Assembly (NCBI GenBank): GCA_016842085.1
Contig: JAEVEX010000047.1
Span: forward strand, 823 to 42,383
DNA length: 41,561 nucleotides
From: Candidatus Thermoflexus tengchongensis
Lineage (GTDB): Bacteria; Chloroflexota; Anaerolineae; Thermoflexales; Thermoflexaceae
Direction of reading: 5' to 3'
How positions within the stretch are numbered: the stretch's first letter is position 1; each line of letters begins with the position of its first letter. Below, piece after piece: positions 98 through 14,601 of this stretch. The notes beneath the pieces were generated by a model, which saw nothing but the letters and a program-made list of their open reading frames with translations, ran no database searches and was not told the origin of the DNA. Position numbers and translations under genes: made by a program.

Positions 98-982
98 ATG
101 GGCCCCGAGATCCACCCGTCCATCACCGCTTTTCTGGCCGAGCTGGAGCGGCGGGGACGCAGCCCCCGCACCGTGAAGGGCTACCGCGAGGACCTGCAGG
201 CCTTCGCCCGGTGGATTCAAGACACCTTTGGCGAGCCCTTCGAGCCCCGCGCCGTGCTCCCCGCCGACGTCCGCGACTACCGGGCCTTCCTGCTGGCCCG
301 CTTCCGCCCCGCCACCGTCAACCGCCGCCTGATCGCCCTGCGGGCCTTCTTCCGCTGGCTGAAGGCTCGGGGGGAGATCCCGGAGGATCCCACGGAAGGC
401 CTTCCCCTGGCCCGGGAGGTCCGCCCGGCGCCGAAGGCCCTCACGCCCCAGGAGCTGCGGCGGCTGCTGCGGGCCGCGCATCGGGGCGGGAATCCCCTGC
501 ACATCGCGGTGCTGACCATGCTGGCCTTCGCCGGCTTGCGCGTGGGGGAGGTGTGCGAGCTGCGCCTTTCGGACGTGCAGCTGACCCCGCGCTCCGGGCG
601 GGTGGTGGCGCGAGGCAAAGGGGAGAAAACCCGGACGATCCCCCTGGCGCCGGAGGCGCGGCGGGCGCTTCAGGCCTATCTGGCCGTGCGGCCGGAGATC
701 GACTCCGACCGGCTGTTCATCGGCCGCCGCGGGCCGCTGACCCCCTCGGGGGTGTGGCAGATCGTGAAGGCCTACGCCCGCCAGGCGGGGCTGGAGGATG
801 TGCATCCCCACGTGTTGCGGCACACCTTCGCCACGCGTCTTTTGCGGGAGGCAGGGGCGGATCTGGTCACGGTGGCCGAGCTCCTGGGTCATGAGTCCTT
901 AAACACTACGGCCCGTTATACACGCCCTTCGGAGCGAGATCTGGAGGCCGCGATGGAGCGGTTGGGAGGATTCGGAGGTTGA
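98..982 (+). CDS. Tyrosine recombinase, XerC/XerD-like
   Basis: Site-specific DNA recombinase of the phage-integrase family, 294 residues, the usual size for Xer proteins. It has an N-terminal SAM-like core-binding domain (about 7-92) and a C-terminal catalytic domain (about 115-285). All catalytic residues are visible: R148 (AGLRVGE), K174 (GKGEK), H238 and R241 (HVLRH), H265 (LLGHESLNTT) and the nucleophile Y274 (ARYT). AGGAG lies about 10 bases before the ATG, and a perfect promoter sits upstream. It is monocistronic and followed by a more A/T-rich gene block. It could be a chromosomal dimer-resolution enzyme or the integrase of the adjacent accessory block; the sequence alone does not decide. 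No dif-like site was identified by eye. Confidence 0.93.
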   Translation: MGPEIHPSITAFLAELERRGRSPRTVKGYREDLQAFARWIQDTFGEPFEPRAVLPADVRDYRAFLLARFRPATVNRRLIALRAFFRWLKARGEIPEDPTEGLPLAREVRPAPKALTPQELRRLLRAAHRGGNPLHIAVLTMLAFAGLRVGEVCELRLSDVQLTPRSGRVVARGKGEKTRTIPLAPEARRALQAYLAVRPEIDSDRLFIGRRGPLTPSGVWQIVKAYARQAGLEDVHPHVLRHTFATRLLREAGADLVTVAELLGHESLNTTARYTRPSERDLEAAMERLGGFGG

Positions 983-1105
983 TGCGAGGAAGTCGCCGGT
1001 TTCATTTACGATGCGAGCGCTGCTGATTTCGAAATTTAACAGAACAAGCTCAACGCGTGTGGCGCAAGAAGTCTCTGGCGGATCCTCTGAAGCGGGAGCC
1101 GTGAA

Positions 1106-2206
1106 ATGATATCGGATGCCCGTCAGGCTCGATCCCGGGGTCTCTGGATGCGTGCTGTGTCTTTCACGATACTGCGCGAGCTACTTGCCTTTGCCGCGCA
1201 GTCTTCGAAAGGCCTGCGGGCAAAGGATCTGGATGCTGTTGCTGAACGGCTGAAAACACCAAGCGGGAGGACTCCGGCGCGAACCACCCGCTATCACTAT
1301 CGGAACATCCTCCTAAATCTGGGGATCCTCGGACGTCGCGCAGGACGTTATTTCGTTCAACATCAGGATCCCTTAGTTCAGGCGTTGCTCCGGGCGCTTC
1401 AGCCGGGCAATCCAGAACTGAGCCTTGATGAGCGTTATCACTTTGCGAATCTGGTGCTTCGCAATGCGGATTGCCAGGCTCACTTCTTCGACCTCTTTAC
1501 CGACGGAGAGCCTCTGACGGACCTGGACCTGTTCATTCGGCATGGCCAGCCGGTCGCATGGCGCGTGATCGCGAAGCAGGAGATGACATCTGCCGAGCGA
1601 TCTGCGGAAACCTCTTCCCGGATGCCCGTCCGAGACCGATGCCGGGGCCGACAGCGCAAACGGCGGACGTCTCCTCCATCGCCGGTTCGGATATGGAATC
1701 TGAGCAATGGGCGGGAGCGCATGCTCACGCTTGAGGACGAGCGGCAGGCGATCCTGTATGGCGTTCGTTTCTGGGCTCGTGACGAGCTGGGGTTTCTGGA
1801 TGAGATTTTCATGGAGCGCTACGGGAACGTGATGTTCCCGGTAGAGATTCATGGTTCTGTGCCGGATCCTCGCGTGATCGAGGCGCTGCAGGAGCGCCTG
1901 GATCCTGAGCAGGAGTGGACTTTTTTCAGTGTCCGTGAGCTGGCATGGGAGCTCTGCCCAGCCCTGAAAATTCCCCTGCGCCGGTTTTTCGCTACTCTGG
2001 AGGCCCTTTACCATGCCTATCCAGCCTGGCTCATGTGGATCCCTACTTCCTCCCACATTGCCGCCTTTGCTGCCCCCTCCACCTTTGAAGAGAAACTTCA
2101 GCTGCGCAGTTATTTCCGGGATCCGTGGGGCCGGTATATCTCTCATTTCTGGGCCAACGTCCGATTACGGGAGGTAAAGCCATGGACAATCCCTATCAGC
2201 GCCTGA
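1106..2206 (+). CDS. Unrecognised protein, first gene of an ATPase-PIN trio
   Basis: A 366-residue soluble protein that I do not recognise. The first 90 residues are helical and basic and read like a winged-helix unit (helices around 15-60, then YHYRNILLNLGILGRRAGRYFV), which suggests but does not prove DNA binding. The C-terminal half (about 215-350) is a mixed helical domain rich in aromatic residues. Between them, about residues 155-205, lies a low-complexity Arg/Ser-rich stretch unlike either flank, possibly a disordered linker or the scar of compensating frameshifts. Its 3' end overlaps the ATPase start (2182) by 25 bases, so the two are probably translationally coupled. Its lower GC than the flanking genes fits an acquired block. 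Confidence 0.7.
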   Translation: MISDARQARSRGLWMRAVSFTILRELLAFAAQSSKGLRAKDLDAVAERLKTPSGRTPARTTRYHYRNILLNLGILGRRAGRYFVQHQDPLVQALLRALQPGNPELSLDERYHFANLVLRNADCQAHFFDLFTDGEPLTDLDLFIRHGQPVAWRVIAKQEMTSAERSAETSSRMPVRDRCRGRQRKRRTSPPSPVRIWNLSNGRERMLTLEDERQAILYGVRFWARDELGFLDEIFMERYGNVMFPVEIHGSVPDPRVIEALQERLDPEQEWTFFSVRELAWELCPALKIPLRRFFATLEALYHAYPAWLMWIPTSSHIAAFAAPSTFEEKLQLRSYFRDPWGRYISHFWANVRLREVKPWTIPISA

Positions 2207-3357
2207 GGCTGAGGTATAACCCCTTTGAGCCCGCCGCAACCGATGTGCCGTCGGATTGTCCGATGTGGATCCCGGAAGCCTGGGAGAACCCACTTCGGGA
2301 GTTCATCCGAAGGGCCCAGCATACCCGGGGTCCGAAAGCGTTCGTGATCCTTGGCAGTTATGGGGCTGGGAAGACATATCTGCTGCGCTGGCTGGAGCGG
2401 GAGCTGTTCCCCGGAGAGCGGATCCGGCCCTTTTACTTTAAGAACCCCGGGGTTCGTTTCTATGATCTTGCCGACAGGCTGTTCAGTCAGCTGGGCCGGG
2501 AGGAGCTGGCTAAGGCAATCTGGGAATGGGCTCGCCCCAGCATCCCGGGCTTCCAGATCCCATGGCTGAGTTTCTCTTTCCTGAACATCCTGGAAGCCCT
2601 TTACAGGCAAAACAAAAATCACGAAGCTATCCTCGCCATCGCGGCCCGCCTCAGGGAGCATCAGATCACTCAAGATGAAGAGATCGCCTTTCAGTTTGGG
2701 CGCCTGGTGGTTGAAACGGCAAAGCAACCTTATTTCTCCTATCGGGATTTTGTGGCAGGGAAGCGCGGCGCTCTGGTCCCGGAGCAGGATGAGGCCCCTT
2801 ACTTCGCGGCAGTGATCCGCATCATGCAGAAGATCTGGGATCTCCAGGGCGTGGCTTTCCTTATTGATGAATTCGAAGAGGTGGCAATGGAAAGAAGGCT
2901 GTCCAGGCGGGAGGCTTATGATTACATGGCGACGCTCCGACAGCTGATCGATGCCACAGCGAACGAACCGTTCTGGCTGGCGCTTTCCATGACGCCTGAA
3001 GCAGCTCAGAAAACCGAGGAGCTCAAACCGGACCTCTGGCAGCGTATGACCAGCCAGGGGAATTATCTCCTGCGAATCCCTCCTCTGAAGCCGGAAGATG
3101 CCGAGGAGATCCTTCGACGACGGCTTCGGTGCGCACGGTTGGAGGATCAGGACAGCAGTCTTTTCCCGTTTCCGGATGGAATCGGCAAGATCCTTCGGGA
3201 AGACGTGCGCTCTTCTCCCCGGCGGCTAATCCAGCTGGCCAGCCACGCCATTGCTCGAGCCGCCAGCGACCAGCAAGTTGAAATCCCCCTCAAGGCCGAT
3301 TTCCTGCAGAAGCTTCAGGAGGAGCTTTTCCCTCAGCCGCCCCGAAAGGAGGGATGA
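2182..3357 (+). CDS. AAA/ORC-like P-loop ATPase
   Basis: A 391-residue ATP-binding protein. Walker A is GSYGAGKT at 58-65 and Walker B is FLIDE at 226-230, with a sensor-like segment (LALSMTP) about 40 residues later and a helical winged-helix-like C-terminus containing SPRRLIQLA. This layout resembles Orc1/Cdc6-like and BREX BrxD-like ATPases, but I cannot place it in a named family. The ATG at 2182 is chosen over an upstream in-frame ATG at 2125 because GGGAGG sits about 6 bases before it and the domain begins directly there. The gene overlaps the preceding gene by 25 bases and the PIN gene by 4 (ATGA). An ATP-driven DNA-loading or sensing role for its partners is inference. Confidence 0.85.
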   Translation: MDNPYQRLRLRYNPFEPAATDVPSDCPMWIPEAWENPLREFIRRAQHTRGPKAFVILGSYGAGKTYLLRWLERELFPGERIRPFYFKNPGVRFYDLADRLFSQLGREELAKAIWEWARPSIPGFQIPWLSFSFLNILEALYRQNKNHEAILAIAARLREHQITQDEEIAFQFGRLVVETAKQPYFSYRDFVAGKRGALVPEQDEAPYFAAVIRIMQKIWDLQGVAFLIDEFEEVAMERRLSRREAYDYMATLRQLIDATANEPFWLALSMTPEAAQKTEELKPDLWQRMTSQGNYLLRIPPLKPEDAEEILRRRLRCARLEDQDSSLFPFPDGIGKILREDVRSSPRRLIQLASHAIARAASDQQVEIPLKADFLQKLQEELFPQPPRKEG

Positions 3358-4166
3358 TGGCCCCCGCATCCTCGAGCATGGAATCGGTGATCTTTGTCGA
3401 TACGAGTGTGCTGCTCAGGATCCGGCTTTTCTGGGATGCGGCAAGCCGTTACCAATTGATTTCGCCGGGACACCTGGAGCGCAAAAAAGTGCTCCAGGAA
3501 TTCAACCAGTTTACTAAGAGACTAAAAGAAGTGCTGTTATATGGCTATAATGCTCTGGCTTATCTGCAGAATAGACAGAGGAACGGCGTTCGGATCTATA
3601 CCTCCCGGCTTGTTCGGCTTGAGATGCTTCGGGCCGTTCTGGAGGGCGCTCTGCACCAACAGCTGGCCCGCTGGGGCATCTTGTGGCATCCCGGGCGAGC
3701 AGGATTGGCTTTCGGCGAACCGCTTCAATCTTACTTGCCCTCGGATGAGCTCAGGGAGTCCGTCGAAAGAATTCTTAACTTCCCAAACGATTTGAGCGCA
3801 CGATGTGGGGTTCAAATCCTGTTTATAGAGGATTACAAAGATTATTTTCGAGACGCGCTTGAGATCGCAGAATTGATTACAAAAGAAGTGATCCTTGACA
3901 ATATCATGGATAGTTTTATCTACGCTAGCGCCCTGGCAGTGCAAGCCGACCAGCTGATTACTTCCGATAGGGCTTTTAGCAAGATGATCAACAAGCTTTG
4001 CAATCCTTCGGGGGATCGTCGGTGGGATCACCTGCAGCAAAGCCTGAGGCGAATTCTGGAACGTTACGGGCAAGAACAGCCAGTATTCCCGGCATCGCCC
4101 GGGCTTGGCTCGGCAGGCACCCTGGAGATCTTGCAGATTCGGTCTGATTCGCTGACAAAACCTTGA
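3354..4166 (+). CDS. PIN-domain nuclease, ATPase-linked
   Basis: A 270-residue protein with a PIN-like Mg-dependent RNase fold. Acidic residues sit at the expected places: D16 in FVDTSVLL, E90 in VRLEMLR, D182/D186 in the DNIMDSFIYASA helix and D205 in ITSDRAF. It is twice the length of a VapC toxin: about 65 residues of insert follow the first strand, another insert lies at about 100-150, and a 55-residue tail follows the core. No small antitoxin gene precedes it; the immediate upstream partner is the ATPase, which it overlaps by 4 bases. AGGAGGG at 3347-3353 favours the ATG at 3354 or 3357. It is therefore probably an effector or processing nuclease of the three-gene unit rather than a classic toxin, which is inference. 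Confidence 0.82.
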   Translation: MMAPASSSMESVIFVDTSVLLRIRLFWDAASRYQLISPGHLERKKVLQEFNQFTKRLKEVLLYGYNALAYLQNRQRNGVRIYTSRLVRLEMLRAVLEGALHQQLARWGILWHPGRAGLAFGEPLQSYLPSDELRESVERILNFPNDLSARCGVQILFIEDYKDYFRDALEIAELITKEVILDNIMDSFIYASALAVQADQLITSDRAFSKMINKLCNPSGDRRWDHLQQSLRRILERYGQEQPVFPASPGLGSAGTLEILQIRSDSLTKP

Positions 4167-4185
4167 AAGAGGCGCCCGTGGTTGG

Positions 4186-4200
4186 CATACCCGGGGTATG
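4186..4200. promoter_or_regulatory. 15-base palindrome, possible operator
   Basis: CATACCCGGGGTATG is a perfect inverted repeat (7-base arms around one G) in the 203-base gap between the PIN gene and the methyltransferase. It is of operator size and symmetry. No regulator gene is adjacent, so function is only a possibility. Confidence 0.35.
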
Positions 4201-4369
4201 AAGAGATGGGTTCCGGATCGGTGATCTTCTTTCCCGGGTCCTTCAATCCGGGCCGGGCACCCTGGCCCCAGCCCGGATCGAGAACGGGGAAAGGGGCCTT
4301 TTAGTCCGCTTCGATCCGGGCGTATTCCCTGCCTGAAAGGGCGAACCGTCAGATTCCGGGGTGGATCGT

Positions 4370-5662
4370 ATGAAAGCGATGAGCGCTTTCACAAAGCCTT
4401 CCGTTGTATTGCCCGATGGCTTCGTTCTGCGAGCCGATTTGAGCCGCGCGGCCACACCGACGCTGCTTCGCCAGCGGCCGATCCATCGATGGTTCTGGTT
4501 TCCTCATTCTTATTCGCCGGAGCTGGTGGAGGCCATCCTGGAGGCATGGGATCTTCCACCCGGATCTCGCCTTCTGGATCCTTTCTGCGGCGCCGGGACC
4601 ACCCTGCTGGTGGCCCGGGAACGCGGCTTCCCGGCCGCCGGTGTGGATCTTTCCCCCCTGGCGGTGCTGGCCAGCCGGGCCAAAACGCGATGGCCCGGCA
4701 GTTCCGAAGGGATCCTCTCCAGCCTTCAACGTCTTCGGCGCGTCGTCTCACAACAGCTTCGGGTTTTCCGTCGTCGGGCTCTGTTTCGCCCCGTTTCGCC
4801 CCCTTCCCCACGGCTGGCCCGAGCGTTCACACCGATCGAATGGGCGGCGCTCTCCGTGCTCCGGGAGTGGATCCTTCAGCTCCCGCCCTCTTTCGAGCGT
4901 GATTTGCTGTGGCTGGCTCTGCTGCGCATCCTTCCCCGGTTCAGCCGGGCGAGCGGCGATGGGGGATGGCTGCGCTGGGTGGAGCGCCCGGAAGCGACGC
5001 CGGAACAGATCCTGAGCGCCTTCGAGGAGGAAATCCGACGTTTCACGGAGGATCTGGAGTGGCGGGCGCGGCATCCTGTCCCCCCGGCGCGGGTTTCCGT
5101 TCATCGGATGGATGCCCGCCGGATCCATCGACTTCCACGGATGTTCGACGCCGTGATCACTTCCCCGCCTTATCCCAATCGTCACGATTACACCCGGATC
5201 TTTCATATCGAGCTGCTTTTTATGGGATGTAGAGAGGAGGATATCCTCCGCCTCCGCCGGGAATCCCTGCGCTCTCACGTGGAGGCTCGGGGTTTGGATC
5301 TGACTCCGGAAGGATATTTGCCGCCGTCTCGTTTGCAGGCCTATCTGAATGACCTGAAGGATCTTGATCCACGGGTTCCGCGCATGGTGGCCGGTTACTT
5401 TGAGGATCTGTTCTGGGTGTTGCGCGGCGCCCGTCAGATTCTAAACCCAGGAGCGCGTCTTGCGCTGGTGGTCGGGAATGCCCGCTACGGCGGGCAGATC
5501 CTCCCGGCAGACGAGCTGATGGTAGAGATCGGGGAGCAGGCCGGTTATCGCTTTGAGGGCGCCTGGGTGATCCGGCTGCGCGGGAACAGCGCTCAACAAA
5601 TGGGTCGATACGGCCGACTTCCCTCCCGGGAAAGCGTCGTGTTCCTGAAGGCCAGGGCATAG
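4370..5662 (+). CDS. DNA methyltransferase (N4-cytosine or N6-adenine)
   Basis: An S-adenosylmethionine-dependent DNA amino-methyltransferase of about 430 residues. The SAM-binding motif I is LLDPFCGAGTT (68-78), followed by the acidic GVDLSPLA. The catalytic motif IV is SPPYPNR (265-271), typical of N4-cytosine and some N6-adenine enzymes. The order is motif I then IV, with about 190 residues between them that may hold target recognition. The C-terminal LALVVGNARYGG resembles the later catalytic-domain strands of the same family. The ATG at 4370 has GGGGTGG 5 bases upstream; an in-frame GTG at 4361 is the alternative. It stands between the ATPase-PIN trio and the restriction genes, so it could protect host DNA for either. 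Target sequence unknown. Confidence 0.86.
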   Translation: MKAMSAFTKPSVVLPDGFVLRADLSRAATPTLLRQRPIHRWFWFPHSYSPELVEAILEAWDLPPGSRLLDPFCGAGTTLLVARERGFPAAGVDLSPLAVLASRAKTRWPGSSEGILSSLQRLRRVVSQQLRVFRRRALFRPVSPPSPRLARAFTPIEWAALSVLREWILQLPPSFERDLLWLALLRILPRFSRASGDGGWLRWVERPEATPEQILSAFEEEIRRFTEDLEWRARHPVPPARVSVHRMDARRIHRLPRMFDAVITSPPYPNRHDYTRIFHIELLFMGCREEDILRLRRESLRSHVEARGLDLTPEGYLPPSRLQAYLNDLKDLDPRVPRMVAGYFEDLFWVLRGARQILNPGARLALVVGNARYGGQILPADELMVEIGEQAGYRFEGAWVIRLRGNSAQQMGRYGRLPSRESVVFLKARA

Positions 5663-6050
5663 GATCCGGCAAACATGGGGTTCATCGGTTCGGACCGGTT
5701 TTGCGCCAGCCCATGAGCTGTCCTGGAGAGTCAATTGGTTCGATGGGGATAAAAGATGGAATCGAACGAGAGGAGCGAAAGCGGCAGGGGCAGATCATGA
5801 GGCGAGGCCCTTGCGACTCGAAGGAAGCGCTGGCGCGAGGACTCTTGTCGGCAGCCTTCATCCGGCGCTATCATGGCCCTGAAAACAAAAACGCCTCGCC
5901 GGTCCCTCCCACGGCGAGGCGATGGCGCGGGGCGGCTTGGGCGCCCCGGCGGGGAATAGTTTAGCACAGCGCGCCCGCCGCGGGCAAGAAGGGCCCCGGC
6001 GGGCGCGCGCGTTTCCGGAGGCCGTCATACGGAAGAATGGGGAGAAGCAT
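5663..6050. other. 388-base gap between the two methylase genes
   Basis: No convincing gene is present; open frames here lack a ribosome site and a protein-like composition. The gap contains a perfect 10-bp hairpin with a minus-strand T-tract (5882-5921), then a very GC-rich stretch and the ribosome-binding site of the DUF1156-type methylase (GGGGAGAAG near 6039). No clear promoter for the downstream operon was found by eye. Confidence 0.6.
5882..5921 (-). terminator. Rho-independent terminator, minus-strand orientation
   Basis: Arms CGCCTCGCCG (5892-5901) and CGGCGAGGCG (5912-5921) pair perfectly over 10 bp with a 10-base loop. Read on the minus strand, the hairpin is followed by TTTTTGTTTTC, the classic intrinsic-terminator tail. 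Read on the plus strand there is no T-tract. No minus-strand gene is recognised upstream, so what it terminates is unclear. Confidence 0.65.
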
Positions 6051-8087
6051 ATGGAACGGAAGCTAATCGAGGATGTTCTCCCGGTGGATGTGATCAGCCG
6101 GGACGCGGGCATTGAGATGAGCTTCAAGCCCACCCCTTCCTACTTGGCCCGATGTCGGGAGCTGGGGCTTCCCCATCCGGGCCGGAAATTCTTTGACCCC
6201 AAGATCCGGAGCCTGCTTCCCTGGCTGGCCCGGCGTTCCCGGGCTGTGGCGCGAGCGCTGAATCTGGCGGCGATCCTTCCCGCGGCCACGCCTCCGGACC
6301 TTTATCTTCGGATGCTGGGGTTTTCGAAGGAGCAGCTGCCGGCGCTGGTGGCCGCGGGCTATCCCCCTCTTCTCTCCTACGCCCGGCCGGAGGTGGACCC
6401 TTCCCTCCTGGAGTCCGTGGTGATCATGGATCCCATGGCCGGCGGTGGAACCATCCCGCTGGAAGCGGCCATCCTGGGAGCCCGGACGATTGCCGGCGAT
6501 TACAACCCCGTGGCCTTTCTGATCCTTCGGGCAACGGTGGAGTGGCCAGCCCGGTATGGCCCGGATCTTTATCGTCGGGTGCGGGAGGAGGCCCGGGCCC
6601 TGATCGCCTTCGCCCGGGAGGCGCTGGCCCCCTATTATGGGGGAGAGGACCGCGGCTATCTCATCCTCCGGCAGGCGCTGTCCGATTCGGGCCCTATCCC
6701 GCTGGTCTCCTCGGTGATCCTGGGGAGGGGCATCGCCCTGCAGCTGAATGGGGGGAGGCCGAGGCTGGCGCCGGCGTCCGTCCGGGGCCCGACGCGACGG
6801 GATCTGATCGAGCCATGGATACAGCAGCACCGGGCTATGATGCAGGGGAACCCGGATCTGCTGATCACCCACCGGGTGGTAGCGGTGCAGGAGCGGGGGG
6901 GATTCCGTCCCGCGCGGGAGGAGGATCAGGAGCTTCTGCGACGGGCCCTGGAGGCCAACATGGCTTCCCTCCCGCTCCTCCCGGACACGGATCTTCCGGA
7001 AGACAACCGGATCTTCCGGAAGATCCGGGCGCTGGGAAGCTACCGGTATCTGTTCAACCCCCGGCAGGCGCTGGCGATGGGGCGTCTGATCCGGTATGTC
7101 CGGGAAAGGGTACGGGCGCTGGCGCGGGAGGATCCGGAGTTCGGCGCCGCGGTGGCCACCTATCTGGCCTTCGGGCTCTGTCGTCTGGCGGATTTCAACT
7201 CCATCCTGACTTCCTGGAATGAACGCCAGGGAACCATCCGGGATGCCCTGGGCAGCTACTATAAGTTCCGAGAGCTGAGGCTGGAGGGCGTGTATGCGGA
7301 GGCGGTGGTGCCCTATCGGACGCTGGAGTGGATTTTCGAGCCGGACGCCGAGCGCGAGACCGCAGGAGGCATCTGCCCGGTCCTGAAGGAGCTGACACGG
7401 AGCCTGCGGGGGGATTTGGGGGGACGGATTCAAATTTTCATGATGGATGCCCTTCAGCTGTCCCGCCATTTCCGTCGCCTGGCGGACGTGATCAACGTGG
7501 ATCCGCCCTACTTCGACGTTCACGGATACAGCGATTTCTCAGAATTCTTCTGGCCGATCCTGCAGACGACCCTGGAGGAGGCCCTGCCCGTCCTGTTCGG
7601 CGGACGGGTGCTTCTGGATTGGTCCCCGGCGATGAGGACGGCGCCCCGTCAGCATGAGGTGATTGGGCGAATGGGGAGGGAGGACGAGGAGTTCGAGGGC
7701 CGGCTCGCGCAAGCCCTGCAGGAGATGCGCGAGGCGCTGAAGGACGACGGCCTGCTGGTGCTCTGGTTCAGCCATCGGGAGCTGAAGGCATGGCAGGCGG
7801 TAGCCCGGGCCCTCCATCGGAGCCGCTTCACCGTTGTCAATGTGATCCCCCTGGTGTCTGAACATCCCACACGAAGCGTCACCCGCGGCGGTCGGGGGGG
7901 CATCCACCGGGTGCTCGTCGTGGTGGCCCGCAAGGCGGAGTTCGCTCCCGTGGTGGACATCGACACCCTCCGGGAGCGGTTCCTGGCTCAGCTGCAAAAG
8001 GCCCGCCTGTTCCCCCACGAGCGGATCGACCCGGCGGAAATGGAGACCCTGGCCTCGGCCCTTGAGATCCTTTTCCGGGAGGCCTGA
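6051..8087 (+). CDS. DUF1156-type DNA methylase
   Basis: A 678-residue DNA methyltransferase. The N-terminus (RKLIEDVLPVDVIS, then a basic LARRSRAVARAL helix) matches the DUF1156 lead-in of large adenine-type methylases. Motif I is DPMAGGGTIPLEA at 127-139, followed by the acidic AGDYNP. The catalytic DPPYFD is at 484-489, with a 350-residue insertion between the two motifs as in that family. The ATG at 6051 is chosen because GGGGAGAAG precedes it and family homology begins there; the open frame extends to 5922 but that extension is low-complexity. The restriction endonuclease gene starts one base after the stop, so this is most likely the protecting methylase of that R-M system. Confidence 0.86.
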   Translation: MERKLIEDVLPVDVISRDAGIEMSFKPTPSYLARCRELGLPHPGRKFFDPKIRSLLPWLARRSRAVARALNLAAILPAATPPDLYLRMLGFSKEQLPALVAAGYPPLLSYARPEVDPSLLESVVIMDPMAGGGTIPLEAAILGARTIAGDYNPVAFLILRATVEWPARYGPDLYRRVREEARALIAFAREALAPYYGGEDRGYLILRQALSDSGPIPLVSSVILGRGIALQLNGGRPRLAPASVRGPTRRDLIEPWIQQHRAMMQGNPDLLITHRVVAVQERGGFRPAREEDQELLRRALEANMASLPLLPDTDLPEDNRIFRKIRALGSYRYLFNPRQALAMGRLIRYVRERVRALAREDPEFGAAVATYLAFGLCRLADFNSILTSWNERQGTIRDALGSYYKFRELRLEGVYAEAVVPYRTLEWIFEPDAERETAGGICPVLKELTRSLRGDLGGRIQIFMMDALQLSRHFRRLADVINVDPPYFDVHGYSDFSEFFWPILQTTLEEALPVLFGGRVLLDWSPAMRTAPRQHEVIGRMGREDEEFEGRLAQALQEMREALKDDGLLVLWFSHRELKAWQAVARALHRSRFTVVNVIPLVSEHPTRSVTRGGRGGIHRVLVVVARKAEFAPVVDIDTLRERFLAQLQKARLFPHERIDPAEMETLASALEILFREA

Positions 8088-8088
8088 A

Positions 8089-8871
8089 ATGCAACTGGAA
8101 ACTCAAAGGCAGATCCTGAAGATGGTCGTGGAGTTTGCGGAAAGCGCCCTTCCGCTGGACCTGGATGTGGAGCGTCTCCGGCGGGCCTTTCCCTTTCACG
8201 CGCCGTTCTTCACCGATGAAGGTCTGCGGGCCTTTAAGGTCCAGAGAAACATCGTGACCCGGCTGGGGCAGGTCCTCATCCCGCGTATCGCGGAGCTGAT
8301 CGCACGAGATAAGTATCAGAAAGTGCACCGGGAGCACCCGATAACCGGACAGGTCGACGAGGGGATGATGGCCAGAATCCAGCAAATCGTGAACGATCTA
8401 AGAGCAGGAAGAAGGCAGCCCAACGCCCAGAAAGAATGGGAGGAAATCCTGGGATCCGCCTCAAACAGGATGGTTCCGCAACAGGTGGTCGCCGACCTGT
8501 ATGTGGAAGATTTCGAGGGTGGGCCGCTCTTTGTGGAGATCAAAAGCCCGCGCCCCAACCTGGATATCTGCGCTGAGACCAAACGGAAGATGCTGACCTT
8601 CCGCGCCATGATGCTGGCGATGGGTCAGCCTCAAGCCAAAGCATACATGGGCCTCTGGTATAACCCCGATATCGACCGCGAGAAATATTCCCATCTCATC
8701 GTCCGTCGGGTTATGGACATGTCCCATGAAGTGCTCCTGGGGGAGGAGCTGTGGGATACGATTGGGGGACCCGGAACCTACGACGAGATCCTCGAAATCA
8801 TGAAGAAGGCCGAGCAACACATTCGGAAGCGGGAAGGCCGCGATGCCGGAATGGCAGGTCGCCCTGATTAG
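8089..8871 (+). CDS. TdeIII-family type II restriction endonuclease
   Basis: A 260-residue PD-(D/E)XK nuclease. The catalytic core reads VADLYVEDFEGGPLFVEIK: D136, E150 and K152. It is followed by SPRPNLDICAETKRK, and the C-terminal LGEELWDTIGGPGTYDEIL is the other segment I recognise as typical of TdeIII-like enzymes. Characterised relatives cut GGNCC; whether this one does is unknown. The ATG at 8089 lies one base after the methylase stop with GGGAGG 6 bases upstream, so the pair is translationally coupled. The in-frame ATG at 8062 inside the methylase is unlikely. The downstream gene overlaps its last 29 bases. Confidence 0.85.
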   Translation: MQLETQRQILKMVVEFAESALPLDLDVERLRRAFPFHAPFFTDEGLRAFKVQRNIVTRLGQVLIPRIAELIARDKYQKVHREHPITGQVDEGMMARIQQIVNDLRAGRRQPNAQKEWEEILGSASNRMVPQQVVADLYVEDFEGGPLFVEIKSPRPNLDICAETKRKMLTFRAMMLAMGQPQAKAYMGLWYNPDIDREKYSHLIVRRVMDMSHEVLLGEELWDTIGGPGTYDEILEIMKKAEQHIRKREGRDAGMAGRPD

Positions 8872-9547
8872 CGCGGGAGCCGCCATCCTGAGCAGCGCCC
8901 TCACGGCCTACATCTCCCACCGTTTGGAGTGGAGGCGGCGCCGGGTGGAGGAGAACCTGCGCTGGCTGGAAGAGCGCTATCGCCCGGCTCTCGCCTTCAT
9001 GGGAGAACTGGTGACCGAGCTGGCTGGCCAGCACCCCCTGGAACACGCCGAACTTCTATCCATCCGCCACCGGGTGGAGGAGCTGACCCGGAAGGCGTGG
9101 CCCAGCGCCCTTTACCTGGATCCCGAGGATACCGGGTTAAGGGAGCTTGTGCTGGAAACGCTGCGCTACGCGAGGATTGCGGAGAGCAGGGAGAATTTTG
9201 TCGAGTACACGGTCAATGTGCTGAGAAATTTCTCTGCGCTCCAGCGGATCTTTCTCGAGGAGCGGGACGAAATCCTCTCGGGCCAATATTTGAAAAGCCT
9301 GATCCGCAAACGGGAGGACAGGAAGCGAAAGGAAGACCGGCGCTTTCAGCGATTCTGGCAGGAGCTGGAATCGTTTCGAGATGGCAAAAGGACGCTGAGC
9401 CAGATCCTTCATCAGATTCATGAGTCAGGCATACGAGGGGAGCTGCTGAGCCTCCTCCTGGAGAATCTGGAGAGGAAATCGGCGGGGATGGGAAAGGAGC
9501 GCGTTATAGAACTTCGGGAGGCATGTCGGGAGCGCGGATGGCTTTGA
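8843..9547 (+). CDS. Membrane-anchored coiled-coil protein of the R-M operon
   Basis: A 234-residue protein of no family known to me. One hydrophobic segment (about 6-25, VALISAGAAILSSALTAYIS) is followed at once by a basic stretch (HRLEWRRRR), predicting a single N-terminal anchor with the body in the cytoplasm. The rest is highly charged and helical, with long coiled-coil-like runs (about 28-75 and 140-190). It overlaps the endonuclease gene by 29 bases and is followed closely by the STAND ATPase (9565), so all four genes look like one transcript. A role in placing the ATPase or endonuclease at the membrane is inference; it could also be an effector. Confidence 0.75.
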   Translation: MPEWQVALISAGAAILSSALTAYISHRLEWRRRRVEENLRWLEERYRPALAFMGELVTELAGQHPLEHAELLSIRHRVEELTRKAWPSALYLDPEDTGLRELVLETLRYARIAESRENFVEYTVNVLRNFSALQRIFLEERDEILSGQYLKSLIRKREDRKRKEDRRFQRFWQELESFRDGKRTLSQILHQIHESGIRGELLSLLLENLERKSAGMGKERVIELREACRERGWL

Positions 9548-9564
9548 AGGAGGAGGGGATCCCC

Positions 9565-12216
9565 ATGGTCTTTATCGGCCGAAAGGAAGAGCTTCGCCTG
9601 TTTGAAGAATCCATAGATGCCCTCGTCAGGCGCGATGCCCCCCGCTATTCCGTCTTCCTGATTCATGGAGAGGGAGGGATCGGGAAAACCACGCTGCTCA
9701 GGAAATATGAAGAGCTGGCCCGTCAGCGCGCGGGCGAGCTCTGCTGTGTCTATCTGGATCTGGAGGATCTCAGGATCCGATCTGAGGATGGGACTCCTTA
9801 CCTGATGAGGGTCCTGGCGAATAGCCTTAGAGAACGGGATGCGCGGTTCCAGGCTCATGAGTTTGAGAAGGCATGGGAGGCATGGCAGAAAGGCCAGGTT
9901 GAGGCGCGCGACTGCTCGAGAGCCCTGAATCAGGATCTCGTGTCCATGGCCCGGTATTGTCCCCTGGTGATCCTTCTGGACACATGGGAGGTGGTCCACC
10001 CCTTTGCCTCCTCATGGTTGGTCCGCGGGCTCATGTTTCATCTCTTATCTAATCTGGAGCTCGGAAATCGCTTTATCTTTGTCACGGCAGGAAGGCTTCC
10101 AGAACGGTTTGTTATGGAAGCTCTTGATGCTCTTCATCAATTTCGGGATTCCGTTCACTTTCGCGAGTTGATGAAATTCACACCGTCGGAGGTGAAGGAG
10201 TATCTCGATGCCTATAAGATCCTCGATGCTTATGGGATCAGAGAGGATCCTGAAAGGGTTGATGAGCTTACCCAAAGGGCTTATGAACTCACCCGTGGCA
10301 TTCCGCTGGCACTGGATATTCTTCGATGGCTGCCCCAGAGAGACCTTGAGAGCCTGGCAGCCATAGCGCATGATCGCAAGATTGTCCAGGCCTTGTTCTA
10401 CCGCTTTCTGCGGCACCTCTCGAAGTCACACATCTATCGTCGCTTTTTTTACAGCATGGCCATGATGCGCCCTACAGGTGAGCGATGGCTGCAACACCGT
10501 TCACAGCTTATAAGGGCCATGCTGGGCTTGCCTCGGCCGATCTACGAGTGGGCAAGGAAGGTCGAAGAGAAGTTTTCATTTGTTCGAAGTGGCAATCTAA
10601 CCCTTCATCCTGATGTGCGTGAAATCATCGTTCAATATCTTAAGAATGAGAGTGAGAGTCGCCTCGACGCTATGGAGCTGGCGGAGCGGGCGCTGCACTT
10701 TTGTTCGAATAGTCGAAAGGAGGCCAGGGAGGGAACGGAGGAATGGAGGGAATGGACGCTCCACATCATTCACTACCGGTTCTGGCTGCAGAAATATGAA
10801 GAGGGGCTCAGGGAGGCCATTGATCTTCTCGCCGTACCTTCCCATGCTACCCGTCTGGAGCTCGGGGAGCTTCTGAACGATTGGGAAGAGGATATCAGCC
10901 ATCGGGCCTCTCATCTGGCCCGGGATTTTGCCGACCTCCGTGAGATAATCGAGAATTGGGGAAGTCCCGAGGTGATAAACCGGTATCAGGAACTGGCCGA
11001 GCGCTATCGCATAGATCCCCAGAGGCGTGTCACCACGGCCCTGGAGCTTGCTCGAAGGCTTGCTAGGAGGGGGAATCTTGCTGAGACCCTTCGGGCTCTA
11101 AAGGATGCTGCAGACAATGCTCTCGAGAGTCCGCCGCCAGGGACTGCTGAGAGGTGGGCTTTGCTGCTGGAAGGGATCATCCAGCATATATTGAGGTGGC
11201 GTTCAGCGGGACAGGAAGCGCTGATGCTTGGCCGCAGGATGGTCGGGGATCACCCCTGGCTCCGGATGGCTGGGGCCCGGATAAAGAGTCCTCAAGGAGA
11301 TGTCCTGGGCGCTTATATTGCCTTGAGAAAGGCTCGCCGGGGGATCGAACAAATTGCTCCTGAAAGGCGAGCGCAATTTGAAGAACAAATCCAGAAAATG
11401 GAGCGCAATCTTCAGGAGAGATTGCCTGGCGGCGCCCGGAGGGCAAAGATTCTGACTATGCTGGGCAATGACAGTAGCGCGTATGGAGAATTCAGTGAGG
11501 CAGAAAGATACTATCGAGAGGCCCTCTCGAGTAACCCCGAATATATCCCGGCTGCGCTTAAGCTCATTCATCTGCTTCGCCATCTGGATCGTTTGCAGGA
11601 AGCCTGGGACTTGCTTCAGCAAATTCTCAGATTGAATTGGACAGCTTTCCCTAACCGATGGAGGGCTGGTATTGAGGAAGCCCGAGGCAGTCTACTGGCT
11701 ATGGAGGGAAAGCAGGAAGACGCAGAGCGGTCCTTCCGGCAGGCAATCGAATGGTCTCCGGATTACGCAAACCCTTACATTAGCCTGGGATGGATTTACC
11801 TTCATCGCAGGAATGGAGACAACGCATTTGAATGCCTGCACCAGGCTCGAACAATCCTGGAGCAATTCAACGCCGGTCCCCTATACCAGGTTTATAACGG
11901 ATTGGGGATGGCCCAGTTGTTAAGAAACCGGCCGCATGAGTACTTTTTTGAAGTTGCCCATAGTCTTTGTGGAAAGCTACCGAAGCCGTCGCGGCCTTAT
12001 CAGGTTATCGCCCATCACGGATTGGCATCGCTCGCATTGAGGGAATTCGGGGAAGCAAACAGGTGTTTTGAGCAGTTAGAAAATTTCCGCCAGGCAAGGG
12101 GATGGCTTCGCACTCTGATTCAGGATGTCCGGTTGCTGGCAGCGCTACTTCCGAAGGATGCGCAACAAATTGGCCACGCCGAAGGAATTCTCCAACGTCA
12201 CCTCTGGCAAGGTTAA
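9565..12216 (+). CDS. STAND-type ATPase with C-terminal TPR repeats
   Basis: An 883-residue signal-transduction ATPase. The N-terminus starts directly with the nucleotide-binding module (FIGRKEEL, like the GREDEL box of NB-ARC/STAND proteins). Walker A is GEGGIGKTT at 35-43, Walker B is LVILLD at 134-139, and the GxP-type GIPLALDIL is at 245-253. A winged-helix-like part follows, then a long helical region with recognisable TPR units in the last 300 residues (for example EFSEAERYYREALSSNPEY and DAERSFRQAIEWSPDYANPY). Such TPRs commonly sense a ligand and trigger oligomerisation. No effector domain is fused, so one may act in trans. The ATG at 9565 has AAGGAGGAGG about 7 bases upstream. The gene is richer in A/T than most of the window. 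Confidence 0.88.
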   Translation: MVFIGRKEELRLFEESIDALVRRDAPRYSVFLIHGEGGIGKTTLLRKYEELARQRAGELCCVYLDLEDLRIRSEDGTPYLMRVLANSLRERDARFQAHEFEKAWEAWQKGQVEARDCSRALNQDLVSMARYCPLVILLDTWEVVHPFASSWLVRGLMFHLLSNLELGNRFIFVTAGRLPERFVMEALDALHQFRDSVHFRELMKFTPSEVKEYLDAYKILDAYGIREDPERVDELTQRAYELTRGIPLALDILRWLPQRDLESLAAIAHDRKIVQALFYRFLRHLSKSHIYRRFFYSMAMMRPTGERWLQHRSQLIRAMLGLPRPIYEWARKVEEKFSFVRSGNLTLHPDVREIIVQYLKNESESRLDAMELAERALHFCSNSRKEAREGTEEWREWTLHIIHYRFWLQKYEEGLREAIDLLAVPSHATRLELGELLNDWEEDISHRASHLARDFADLREIIENWGSPEVINRYQELAERYRIDPQRRVTTALELARRLARRGNLAETLRALKDAADNALESPPPGTAERWALLLEGIIQHILRWRSAGQEALMLGRRMVGDHPWLRMAGARIKSPQGDVLGAYIALRKARRGIEQIAPERRAQFEEQIQKMERNLQERLPGGARRAKILTMLGNDSSAYGEFSEAERYYREALSSNPEYIPAALKLIHLLRHLDRLQEAWDLLQQILRLNWTAFPNRWRAGIEEARGSLLAMEGKQEDAERSFRQAIEWSPDYANPYISLGWIYLHRRNGDNAFECLHQARTILEQFNAGPLYQVYNGLGMAQLLRNRPHEYFFEVAHSLCGKLPKPSRPYQVIAHHGLASLALREFGEANRCFEQLENFRQARGWLRTLIQDVRLLAALLPKDAQQIGHAEGILQRHLWQG

Positions 12217-12251
12217 TTCAAAGAATTCAAAGAGGAAGGGGAAAACGAAAG

Positions 12252-12369
12252 TGGGAGCGGCGGGATTCGAACCCGCGACCTCCCAGCAATCCCCGCGCCT
12301 TATGGGACGGCCGAGAGGATGCCTTCCCCTCATCTGGGGGGCGCTCTGACCACTGAGCTACGCTCCCAC
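12252..12369 (-). tRNA. Over-long tRNA-like gene, identity unclear
   Basis: On the minus strand a 7-bp acceptor stem (GGGAGCG with CGCTCCC, extendable to 9 bp), TA, a canonical D-arm (GCTC-AGTGGTCA-GAGC), a variable AGGTC and a perfect T-arm (GCGGG-TTCGAAT-CCCGC) are all present with discriminator A. The product is about 116 bases instead of 75-90 because roughly 40 extra bases lie between the D-arm and AGGTC. The best anticodon-like hairpin (CCCC-CAGATGA-GGGG, reading GAT) lacks T33, so I do not assign an amino acid. A -10 box TATAAT (12374-12379, minus) lies just upstream, suggesting transcription. No CCA is encoded. Confidence 0.6.
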
Positions 12370-12952
12370 ATAAATTATACAGCATCCCTCTCAGCGCCAG
12401 ATAGGGCCCATCTCATTCGCCCTTCAGCCCCAGCTTCCCACCCAGGACCAAAAGGGTCTGACGCCCCGTTTCGTCCCCCACCAGCCCACGTTCAGCAGAA
12501 AGCACGCCGCAATCCACACCACCTCCACCAGACGCCGAAGGGTCTCCAGGCTCAACAAAGGAATTCCGGGTGGTCTGAACGAGTAGCCGGAATGACTATC
12601 ATCTTCATGAACCCGTCCTTTTCGGGATCCCTCCATGCTCTTCGCCTTCCTGGACGGCCTGGCCCTGATCCTGGAGGACCGCGAGCTCCGCTTCGCCCTC
12701 CGTCCTCCTCTGCCTCCCTTCATCGGGGAGATCCTCTTTCTGCTCCCGGACGGCCCCTTCGTCCTCGCCCTCGCGCGGGCCGATGATGGGAAGCTCCTGG
12801 CCCTGCGCCTGGACTTCCGCCATCGCGAAGCCGAAGTCCTCTGAGCGCAAATCGGCTTTTCCTCTCCGATTTCTCCCCATACCGTGAGAGCATGGGGATA
12901 GAGGTCCGCTATCCCATGGGCGTGTGTCATCACGCCCATGGAGGCTTTCCTC
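12370..12952. other. Stretch between tRNA-like gene and integrase
   Basis: Besides the minus-strand TATAAT of the tRNA-like gene and one doubtful short frame (12635-12844), nothing here looks like a gene. A minus-strand open frame spans 12424-13017, but its composition is Arg/Ser-rich and it runs into the integrase, so it appears to be a shadow. The region may contain decayed coding sequence. Confidence 0.4.
12635..12844 (+). CDS. Possible small protein, 69 residues
   Basis: A short frame with a protein-like composition (alternating Leu-rich strands and acidic residues, for example GEILFLLPDGPFVLALARADDG) that ends about 110 bases before the integrase. It has no convincing ribosome-binding site, and I recognise no family. 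It could be a remnant of a longer gene or chance in GC-rich DNA. Confidence 0.25.
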   Translation: MLFAFLDGLALILEDRELRFALRPPLPPFIGEILFLLPDGPFVLALARADDGKLLALRLDFRHREAEVL

Positions 12953-13780
12953 ATGCGGCTGTTGGAAGCGCTCATCGAGTTCGAGGCCGATGTGCGCCTT
13001 GCGGGATCCCCGCGCACGGCGGAGATCTACGCCTATGCCGTCCGCCGCCTGATCCGGGCCGTTGGGGACGTGGAGCTCCGGGAGGTGAGCGAGCGCGATC
13101 TGCGCCGGTTCCTGGCGGGGATGAAGATCGCCCCGGCCACCCGCCGCCTCTATGTCATCGCCCTGCGCAGCTTCTTCGCGTTCTGCGTCCGGATGGGCTG
13201 GCGCGAGGACAACCCCGCCCGGCGGCTGCGGCTCCCCGCCCGTCCGTGGCGCCGTCAGGCGGTGGCCCGGGCGGAGGACGTCCGCCGCCTGCTGGCCGCC
13301 TGCGAGGACTCGCCTCGCGGGCGCCGTAACGCGGCGGTGGTGGCGATGCTGTTCGAGTCGGGCCTGCGGGCCTCCGAGCTGTGCGCCCTGCGGCCGGAGG
13401 ACGTGGATCTGCGGCGGCGGATCGCGCGGGTGATGGGGAAGGGGAACCGGGAACGGACCGCGCCCTTCGGGGAGGAGACGGCGCGGCGGCTGCGGGCGTG
13501 GCTGGAAGTCCGCCCGGGTCATCTGCGGACCCTGTTCGGCCTCAACCGCCACGGGCTCAAGACCATGTTGCGGCGGCTGTGCGCGGCGGCAGGGATGGAA
13601 ACCCTCAGCCCGCATGCCTTCCGGAGAGGGTGGGCCACGCGACTGGTGGAGATGGGGGTGCCGCTGAAGGCCGTTAAGGAATGGGGCGGGTGGAGCGACT
13701 ACCGGATCCTGGAGGTCTACATCCGGTATGTGGAGACGGAGGCGATGGTGGGGCTGTATCGCTCCCCTCTTGGCTCATAA
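12953..13780 (+). CDS. Tyrosine integrase ending inside a tRNA-Met 3' half
   Basis: A phage-integrase-family recombinase of about 275 residues from the ATG at 12953 (GGAGG 8 bases upstream; an in-frame ATG at 12938 is the alternative). It has an N-terminal SAM-like domain (about 5-90) and a catalytic domain (about 100-265) with R139 (SGLRASE), K163 (GKGNRE), H221 and R224 (HAFRR) and the nucleophile Y256 (LEVYIRY). The usual second histidine is Trp247 (EWGGWSD), a variation seen in some integrases. The stop codon TAA (13778-13780) is part of the anticodon loop of a tRNA-Met 3' half, placing the gene exactly at an attachment site. It is unlike the recombinase at 98-982 in sequence. Confidence 0.9.
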   Translation: MRLLEALIEFEADVRLAGSPRTAEIYAYAVRRLIRAVGDVELREVSERDLRRFLAGMKIAPATRRLYVIALRSFFAFCVRMGWREDNPARRLRLPARPWRRQAVARAEDVRRLLAACEDSPRGRRNAAVVAMLFESGLRASELCALRPEDVDLRRRIARVMGKGNRERTAPFGEETARRLRAWLEVRPGHLRTLFGLNRHGLKTMLRRLCAAAGMETLSPHAFRRGWATRLVEMGVPLKAVKEWGGWSDYRILEVYIRYVETEAMVGLYRSPLGS

Positions 13781-13815
13781 TCGGCGGGTTGTGGGTTCGA
13801 GTCCCACCCTCGCCA
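13772..13815 (+). other. tRNA-Met(CAT) 3' half, predicted attachment site
   Basis: Starting in the anticodon stem, the loop CTCATAA (13774-13780, anticodon CAT at 13776-13778) is followed by the 3' stem, the variable loop, a perfect T-arm (GTGGG-TTCGAGT-CCCAC, 13791-13807), the acceptor strand CCTCGCC and discriminator A. The expected 5' half is missing: integrase codons lie there instead. GGCGATG at 13741-13747 could pair with the acceptor strand at 6 of 7 positions, but no good D-arm or anticodon stem forms. A terminator follows directly. This is how a displaced tRNA 3' end looks at the distal border of an integrated element. Confidence 0.8.
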
Positions 13816-13820
13816 CCTCC

Positions 13821-13857
13821 CCCAGGCGCCCCACAGGCGTGGGGCGCCTGGGTTTTT
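13821..13857 (+). terminator. Strong rho-independent terminator after the tRNA half
   Basis: A perfect 13-bp stem (CCCAGGCGCCCCA, 13821-13833, with TGGGGCGCCTGGG, 13840-13852), a 6-base loop and a run of five T. It lies 6 bases after the tRNA discriminator, as expected for the native terminator of a tRNA gene, and also ends the integrase transcript. Confidence 0.92.
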
Positions 13858-14193
13858 ATAGAAGTTGCGCGACGGGTCTCTTCGGCCTCACCCATGGCCT
13901 GGAAACCCCAGGAAGGATCTATTATGCCTCCCGGCTTTGAGCCGTTCTGTGACTCATCGTCATTTATTTCACCCCACAGGGTGAAACAAATGACCGGTCA
14001 CTTCCTGCTTCCTCGACCCGTGGCTCGTAGACCGGACTTTTGCCCGTTCCGACGCTGTAGGGGCAACCGGCCGGTTGCCCCTACAGGCGTCACTTCCCGG
14101 GGAACTCCCGGTAGGGCTGTTGGAGTGTCGAAGGGTTTCGCTGAATGGAAGATAGCAAAAGCGGCAACGGGGCTGTTCGAAAAATCAGGAGAG
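13858..14193. other. Non-coding rearranged stretch
   Basis: No gene is supported. It holds a 30-base perfect palindrome (14056-14085) and leads into a truncated protease gene. One reading frame is open throughout, but its sequence before about 14200 has no protein-like features. Confidence 0.5.
14056..14085. repeat. Perfect 30-base palindrome
   Basis: TGTAGGGGCAACCGG (14056-14070) is followed immediately by its exact reverse complement. A related palindrome with the same outer GTAGGGCAAC core occurs at 24404-24431, so this is probably a dispersed intergenic repeat (REP-like) of this genome. Confidence 0.75.
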
Positions 14194-14601
14194 AGGCCAG
14201 CCCGCGGGAGGTCTTCGGAAGAGATTGAGCTGGTGGAAAGCCCCCTCTCGGGCCTGGCGCTGCTGGATCTCCTGATCGGGTATGACCGGGTTATCCTCAT
14301 CGACGCAGTTCAGACCGGCCGGGCCCCACCCGGGACGATCTGGGAATGGCCTGCGGAGGAGCTGGGTCGAACCCGGGCACCCTCTCCGCACTTCGCCGGG
14401 CTCCCTGAGGTGCTGACATTAGCTCGCGCGCTCCAGCTTCCGTTCCCGGAAGAGATCCAGATCTATGCAGTGGAGGTGGTGGATCCCATGACGATCGGCG
14501 GAGAGGTTACCCCTCTAGTCCGCCAGGCGATTCCCGAACTGGCTCGTCGGGTTCGGGAGCGAGTGCGAAAGTGGATTGCCGTGAAGGACCTGGGCAGTTG
14601 A
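14194..14601 (+). pseudogene. Hydrogenase maturation protease, 5'-truncated
   Basis: The last 120-odd residues match the HybD/HycI (peptidase A31) family, which trims the large subunit of NiFe hydrogenases. Visible are ELVESPLSGLALLDLL, GYDRVILIDAVQTG with the nickel-binding Asp, and SPHFAGLPEVLTLA with the nickel-binding His. The family's N-terminal GxGNxxxxDDG segment, which carries the third metal ligand (Glu16 in HybD), is absent: the upstream in-frame sequence is unrelated and no good start codon or ribosome site exists. No hydrogenase genes are in the window. It is most likely a remnant left by a deletion or by the nearby integration event. The exact left edge is uncertain. Confidence 0.7.

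Follow-up and report, generated by a model that had tools for sequence, protein, structure and literature searches.

Integrase Stop Codon inside a tRNA(CAT) Attachment Core at the Right Border of a Probable Defence Island in Candidatus Thermoflexus tengchongensis

Introduction

Candidatus Thermoflexus tengchongensis, a member of a little-studied Chloroflexota genus, carries a tyrosine recombinase gene that runs directly into the 3′ half of a tRNA and ends on a stop codon inside it. Such an arrangement raises the questions whether the tRNA half is the attachment site of an integrated element, on which side of it this element would lie, and whether a stop codon placed in recombining DNA could serve as a switch of the integrase. 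For tyrosine integrases that use tRNA genes, strand exchange frequently takes place at the edges of the anticodon loop, in agreement with the 7-bp overlap of the lambda core (PMC8371274). In the Islander set of tRNA islands (PMC4383910), 2083 of 3919 islands are anticodon-centred and 3′ fragments account for 3760 of the 3919.

We analysed a stretch of 41,561 nucleotides, referred to as the window, that corresponds to C18:823-42383, a contig of the source genome (G000; 3.89 Mb in 100 contigs), together with related genomes, which are numbered from G001 where they have to be told apart. The right border of what is very probably a tRNA-borne defence island could be mapped exactly, and empty, occupied and left-end junctions were all recovered from metagenome assemblies. 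Unless stated otherwise, features lie on the plus strand and positions are those of the window.

Results and Discussion

The recombinase, called IntB here, is encoded at 12938..13780 by an open reading frame of 280 aa matching PF00589 (4.6e-34) and the phrog_1 integrases (3.9e-51). Its best solved-structure match is XerD (2.4e-26), and an alignment with XerD served to assign its catalytic residues by eye. The equivalog scores of NCBIfam are missed for XerA (137.1 bits vs 220), XerD (130.5 bits vs 329.6) and XerC (124.9 bits vs 335.15). An ATG at 12953, the start taken in the first-pass annotation, would give 275 aa and is equally plausible because GGAGG lies 8 nt upstream. Immediately 5′ of the ribosome-binding site, at 12914-12941, we observed a perfect 11-bp inverted repeat, and the leader folds into a structure more stable than its shuffled versions; control of integrase translation by this repeat is possible. 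The gene ends with the codons CTT GGC TCA TAA, and the sequence at the border between IntB and the tRNA reads ...CCTCTTGGCTCATAATCGGCGGGTTGTGGGTTCGAGTCCCACCCTCGCCA CCTCCCCCAGGC..., so that the stop codon TAA at 13778..13780 is at the same time nt 36-38 of the tRNA, as the first-pass annotation of this DNA had noticed for a tRNA-Met(CAT) 3′ half.

This 3′ half was found to be a block of 44 bp at 13772..13815 that is 100 % identical to the corresponding part of an intact tRNA-Met(CAT) located in the same genome at C55:82-156 on the minus strand, just such a copy as the first-pass annotation had proposed to search for. The block reads GGCTCATAATCGG...GCCA from 13772 to its last base at 13815 and spans the tRNA from nt 30, two bases before the anticodon loop, to the discriminator base, with the CAT anticodon beginning at nt 34. 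Leftward from 13771 the window and C55 diverge, the 5′ half of the tRNA being absent left of 13772, and ARAGORN called no tRNA in the window. The fragment is followed by the chromosomal tRNA terminator (13821..13858; a hairpin at 13821-13852 plus a T run), which now stands downstream of IntB, and a terminator of the same type follows the intact tRNA in G001, G002 and G005. The alignment with C55 thus agrees with the earlier description of an exact tRNA 3′ half that has kept its terminator and lost its 5′ half. As the exact match of 44 bp is to a tRNA of the same genome and starts in the anticodon arm, chance is ruled out. The entire block is identical, and the crossover would fall inside it, at a precise position that we infer to lie most likely in the anticodon loop. 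The G1-C72 pair of this tRNA(CAT) is, as we take it, not initiator-like, with elongator Met or Ile2 as candidates.

Read in tRNA orientation, C55 passes through the tRNA and ends after 127 bases identical to 13772-13898. When 48 contig ends of the source assembly were compared, four other end pairs were likewise found to overlap by 127 bp, and the start of C18 has exactly 127 bp in common with C82, from which we conclude that 127 is the k-mer length of the assembler. Exceptions among the 48 ends are ten pairs whose starts share 188-193 bp, formed by five contigs starting in one repeat. The overlap of C5 and C18 amounts to just 106 bp because of an N gap in C18; owing to the 10 N at C18:813-822, the join beyond the left edge of the window is a scaffolder's guess. 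As the overlap of C55 and C18 equals k, it represents a junction in the assembly graph at which an attB branch, consisting of tRNA 5′ half, core and chromosome (C55), and an attR branch, consisting of IntB, core and chromosome (C18), come together. Both junctions must have read support, since the core of 44 bp is shorter than k. Judged from these contig ends, the source population is a mixture of empty attB and occupied attR sites, in which the empty site would stem either from cells that have excised the element or from others into which it had never inserted. Contig ends that overlap by exactly k at a tRNA may be used in the same way to expose mixed attB/attR populations elsewhere.

Which side of the fragment is the element becomes clear from the flanks. 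Right of 13816, the tRNA terminator is followed by genes for a HycI protease, an NfeD/signal-peptide peptidase, an oligopeptide transporter and a thiolase-like protein. The HycI hydrogenase maturation protease region (14209..14601; PF01750, 4.7e-10) is the first conserved chromosomal gene on this side, and HycI lies downstream of the same tRNA and on the same strand in G003, G004, G005 (6.8 kb) and G001 (12.4 kb). On the other side of the empty site, the left flank of C55 is syntenic with G002 and G006. In G002-G006 the tRNA is intact and insert-free at that point, and a close IntB copy is absent from these five genomes. With a right flank of conserved chromosome, a syntenic left flank on C55 and insert-free relatives, the element has to lie left of 13772, and we could confirm that 13772-13815, a displaced tRNA 3′ half, is its distal border (attR), as had been supposed. 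The empty sites looked for in relatives are likewise present, as uninterrupted tRNA genes in G001-G006 and as C55 in the same data. In the source genome, tRNA and fragment are on separate contigs, with the integrase adjoining the fragment in the orientation of the tRNA; as the contigs differ, the position of the integrase "between" tRNA and fragment rests on synteny.

The distance between tRNA border and HycI is itself variable, being 0.4 kb in the source genome and 6.8-12.4 kb in four relatives; a stretch at 13816-14209 is therefore either missing here or gained in the relatives. In G003-G006, the first gene of the extra stretch between tRNA and HycI resembles, by eye, heterodisulfide reductase subunit C.

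The element side of the window encodes genes for an AAA/NACHT-type NTPase (2125..3357), a type II methyltransferase (4361..5662; MTase_II, 5.3e-54), a second methyltransferase (5922..8087, with the true start probably slightly downstream), a TdeIII-type restriction endonuclease (8062..8871; PF09520, 6.8e-48) and an AAA ATPase with TPR repeats (9523..12216). At the DNA level, positions 1000-12500 (11.5 kb) recur in the eight other genomes of the genus as short pieces, except for a stretch of 2.7 kb with 68 % identity in G007. The GC content is 59 % at 1100-12586 and 66 % right of 13899. The suggestion that defence genes travel as cargo is thus supported, with restriction-modification and NTPase genes on the element side that are mostly absent, as DNA, from the other genomes of the genus. 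The window genes from 1 to 12.5 kb presumably belong to the IntB element. A second tyrosine recombinase, the XerC-like IntA (98..982), which is also present on the IntB contig in G001, would be a member of it as well. No transfer genes were seen in the window.

Two further observations concern this region. The pair of methyltransferase and TdeIII genes at about 6060-8780 has a homologue with 68 % identical DNA in a further species of the genus, in L160 (G007:C179). In the interval that separates the AAA-TPR gene from the int-att module, at 12252-12367 on the minus strand, we found a 116-nt tRNA-like gene (Rfam tRNA, 55.7 bits) that was missed by ARAGORN. It folds into five arms; its variable arm is long, and its anticodon arm lacks U33, a base usual in tRNA anticodon arms. 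Beyond T-arm similarity, no copy of it is present in the remaining eight genomes of the genus.

A search with the IntB protein in 100 genomes, the source genome and 99 relatives, returned one other genome with a close copy, G001 of the same genus, at 99 % identity. At the DNA level, the int-att module at 12586..13815 (C18 13408-14637) is common to G001:C529 with 98.5 % identity over 1230 bp, and this identity extends to the final base of the 44-bp core but not beyond it. As the chromosomes of both genomes are just 78-83 % identical, the module has moved between species. It is thus present nearly identically in two species with different cargo: in G001, IntA and IntB flank genes unlike those of the source genome. 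A relative carrying integrase and tRNA half without the island genes, which the first-pass annotation had counted against its reading, hence exists in a softened form, as G001 has integrase and tRNA half, with a cargo that differs. This fits an exchange of cargo beside a conserved int-att module.

G001 also supplies the left border. The sequence following the core in C529 is the same as that following the intact tRNA in G001:C566, which identifies the latter as an attL-type junction. G001:C26 represents the empty site; C26 and C566 share exactly 99 bp and part at the tRNA end. The junction of integrase, core and left end in C529 would, going by its sequence, belong either to a circular form or to a tandem of two elements. 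The first gene of the left-end sequence is MerR/excisionase-like, and the genes of C566 include, besides this excisionase-like one, an FtsK-like gene (phrog_1358, 1.1e-14), an SSB and an actin-like partition protein; a Rep was not recognised on this contig. L056:1930-2262, likewise on C566, encodes a STIV_B116-like protein (PF08960, 3.7e-19), a fold that presumably includes viral anti-CRISPR ring nucleases. In the bin of the source genome, we found no third copy of the tRNA half and, probing with the left-end genes of G001, neither the excisionase-like nor the actin-like partition gene. The element of the source genome is therefore visible from its right border alone, and the left-type border is known from C566.

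Taken together, an integrative element with the tRNA(CAT) as its attB very probably has its attR core at 13772-13815. Integration would leave the chromosomal 3′ half with its terminator at the right border and rebuild an intact tRNA at the left. IntB, reading straight into the core, would be the element's own integrase and the predicted catalyst of the exchange, and the element to the left would carry the restriction-modification and NTPase genes as cargo. The attR core, the empty attB, the intact tRNA, the right chromosomal flank, the spread of the module and the different cargo in G001 can be read straight from the sequence.

Two other explanations of the border were weighed against this one. 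C55 and C18 have 127 identical bases in common, core included, and these could be a true long duplication marking both borders of one element, with no mixture of empty and occupied sites. We consider this very improbable, since the overlap has the length of the assembly k and marks the end of C55, since a duplication of that length would have to extend over 83 bp of chromosomal sequence beyond the right end of the core, and since the homology to G001 ends at the 44-bp core. The locus could also be a dead remnant in which an old integrase and a tRNA fragment have outlasted the decay of an element, next to defence genes of separate origin. The absence of the left border from the bin would agree with such a history, but the integrase is full-length and the core perfect, empty and occupied sites occur side by side, and the module is 98.5 % identical in a species whose chromosome is 78-83 % identical, which makes a remnant highly improbable.

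With the integrative element as the preferred reading, we turned to its stop codon. According to the first-pass annotation, integration or excision would change the C-terminus of the integrase or its 3′ end, a possible switch. In the form weighed here, either the C-terminus or the amount of integrase would change, as known for proteins encoded across attP in some phages and archaeal elements. Indeed, the block that recombines contains the IntB stop, and past this stop the frame of attR, with 26 residues to the next stop, is not that of the junction of integrase, core and left end in G001. There are also precedents for an attP inside a gene, namely the BPs repressor (PMC4557955), the SSV integrase (PMC8371274) and the integrases of Mx8 and SSV (PMC4383910). 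IntB resembles the BPs repressor and the Mx8 and "suicidal" SSV integrases in that its coding region meets the attachment site. In SSV and BPs, as far as these sources describe, integration splits or shortens the protein, whereas IntB stays unchanged with its stop in an identical core. The core, with the stop in it, shows no difference among the seven junctions that were aligned, the integrase of G001 ends in ...YRSPLGS* as well, despite different DNA after its core, and in either context the core is succeeded by a hairpin. A switch is thus extremely unlikely, and the C-terminal version of it was rejected on the seven alignments, in which attB, attL, attR and the junction of integrase, core and left end all have the same core.

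What does differ is the 3′ untranslated part, which holds the chromosomal terminator in attR and a GC-rich inverted repeat in the left end of G001. This repeat, which also follows the rebuilt tRNA, probably acts as a terminator. The IntB stop would lie in a block that is obligatorily identical in attP and attB. Because of this position, the circular and the integrated element would encode the same IntB end. As far as the aligned junctions tell, having the stop in the core is thus the opposite of a switch, as the homology rule of the reaction would protect it, and we regard the overlap as a neat economy. One might further imagine that, with its stop on tRNA nt 36-38, the integrase keeps its normal form only if it targets the right tRNA, which would amount to a built-in off-target check; we hold this idea to be very improbable. 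If it were true, insertion into a tRNA with a different anticodon or loop, or read-through of the stop, would yield an extended integrase, whose tail would differ between the integrated form (26 residues) and the junction of integrase, core and left end, maybe the circular form.

Attachment sites of the pSAM2/SLP1 type lie near int 3′ ends. Among described systems, the IntB element comes close to the Islander class of tRNA islands, which are likewise defined by an intact tRNA, a 3′ fragment in the same orientation and a tyrosine integrase beside that fragment (PMC4383910); here, in contrast, the integrase stop lies inside the fragment and the right border alone was recovered. Islander also accepts fragments that overlap an integrase gene, the reason given being that the integrases of Mx8 and SSV reach across attP (PMC4383910). 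The AICE pACPL has a 43-nt att in the 3′ end of a tRNA-Pro (PMC3364876), similar in length to the core found here, and the left end of G001 carries an excisionase-like gene, an FtsK-like ATPase and an SSB; pACPL differs by its phylum and by its int, xis and rep genes, which lie immediately downstream of attP. Plasmid pPDL2 of Sphingobium has, as here, a predicted attP at the 3′ end of int1 that matches a tRNA 3′ end (PMC3516476, accessible part), but the site is plasmid-borne and concerns a serine tRNA, and that part of the report does not describe an overlap with the stop codon. Greater distances are given in two further reports: in HK022, the int stop and the junction are 73 bp apart (PMC6814406), and in 89K, the integrase gene lies 63 bp away from the end of the island (PMC3132442). 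In the open-access literature, outside of which much of the older work lies, we found no exact precedent for an integrase stop inside a tRNA core. Overall, the IntB element is of the ordinary tRNA genomic-island kind, with an unusually tight border.

To assess how widespread the overlap is, we examined 50 integrase loci, namely that of the window, that of G001 and 48 homologues with identities of 26-41 %. Three of them have a perfect T-arm close to the int stop, two being the copies of the IntB element, compared with 1.5 % of random windows from the same 50 loci. In the third, G039, a tRNA-like 3′ half lies 74 nt past the int stop; as a second copy of it was not found in that genome, it is an unproven tRNA target. 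An overlap of tRNA and stop was thus rejected as a family-wide trait, with 2 of 50 loci, both copies of the IntB element, showing it. In viral contigs, the exact 44-bp core gave no match, IntB gave two distant relatives and none was confirmed for the excisionase-like protein of C566; in plasmids, IntB gave 2872 records, all below 60 % identity.

Several recurring sequences were observed in the window besides the int-att module. The IntA family consists of XerC-like recombinases with several copies in G000, G001 and G006, found at 98-982 of the window, L007:697-812, L065:930-1936, the end of L120 with the start of L064, L055 and L063. Each copy has a conserved upstream block of about 115 bp, in which, unless an N gap cuts it, CGCAAGATAATTTC occurs twice, 101 bp apart. 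Similarity stops at the IntA stop, and each copy is then followed by different genes, some of them defence-like. A block at 5780-6015 recurs at 85-95 % identity in five other contigs of the source genome and in several relatives; in C84 and C5, the contigs examined, it lies just upstream of different genes. At 13942-14117, finally, we noted a repeat of about 175 bp that is dispersed over several contigs of the source genome and also occurs in relatives; a hit to the Caulobacter sRNA family CC2171, weak and below threshold, overlaps it.
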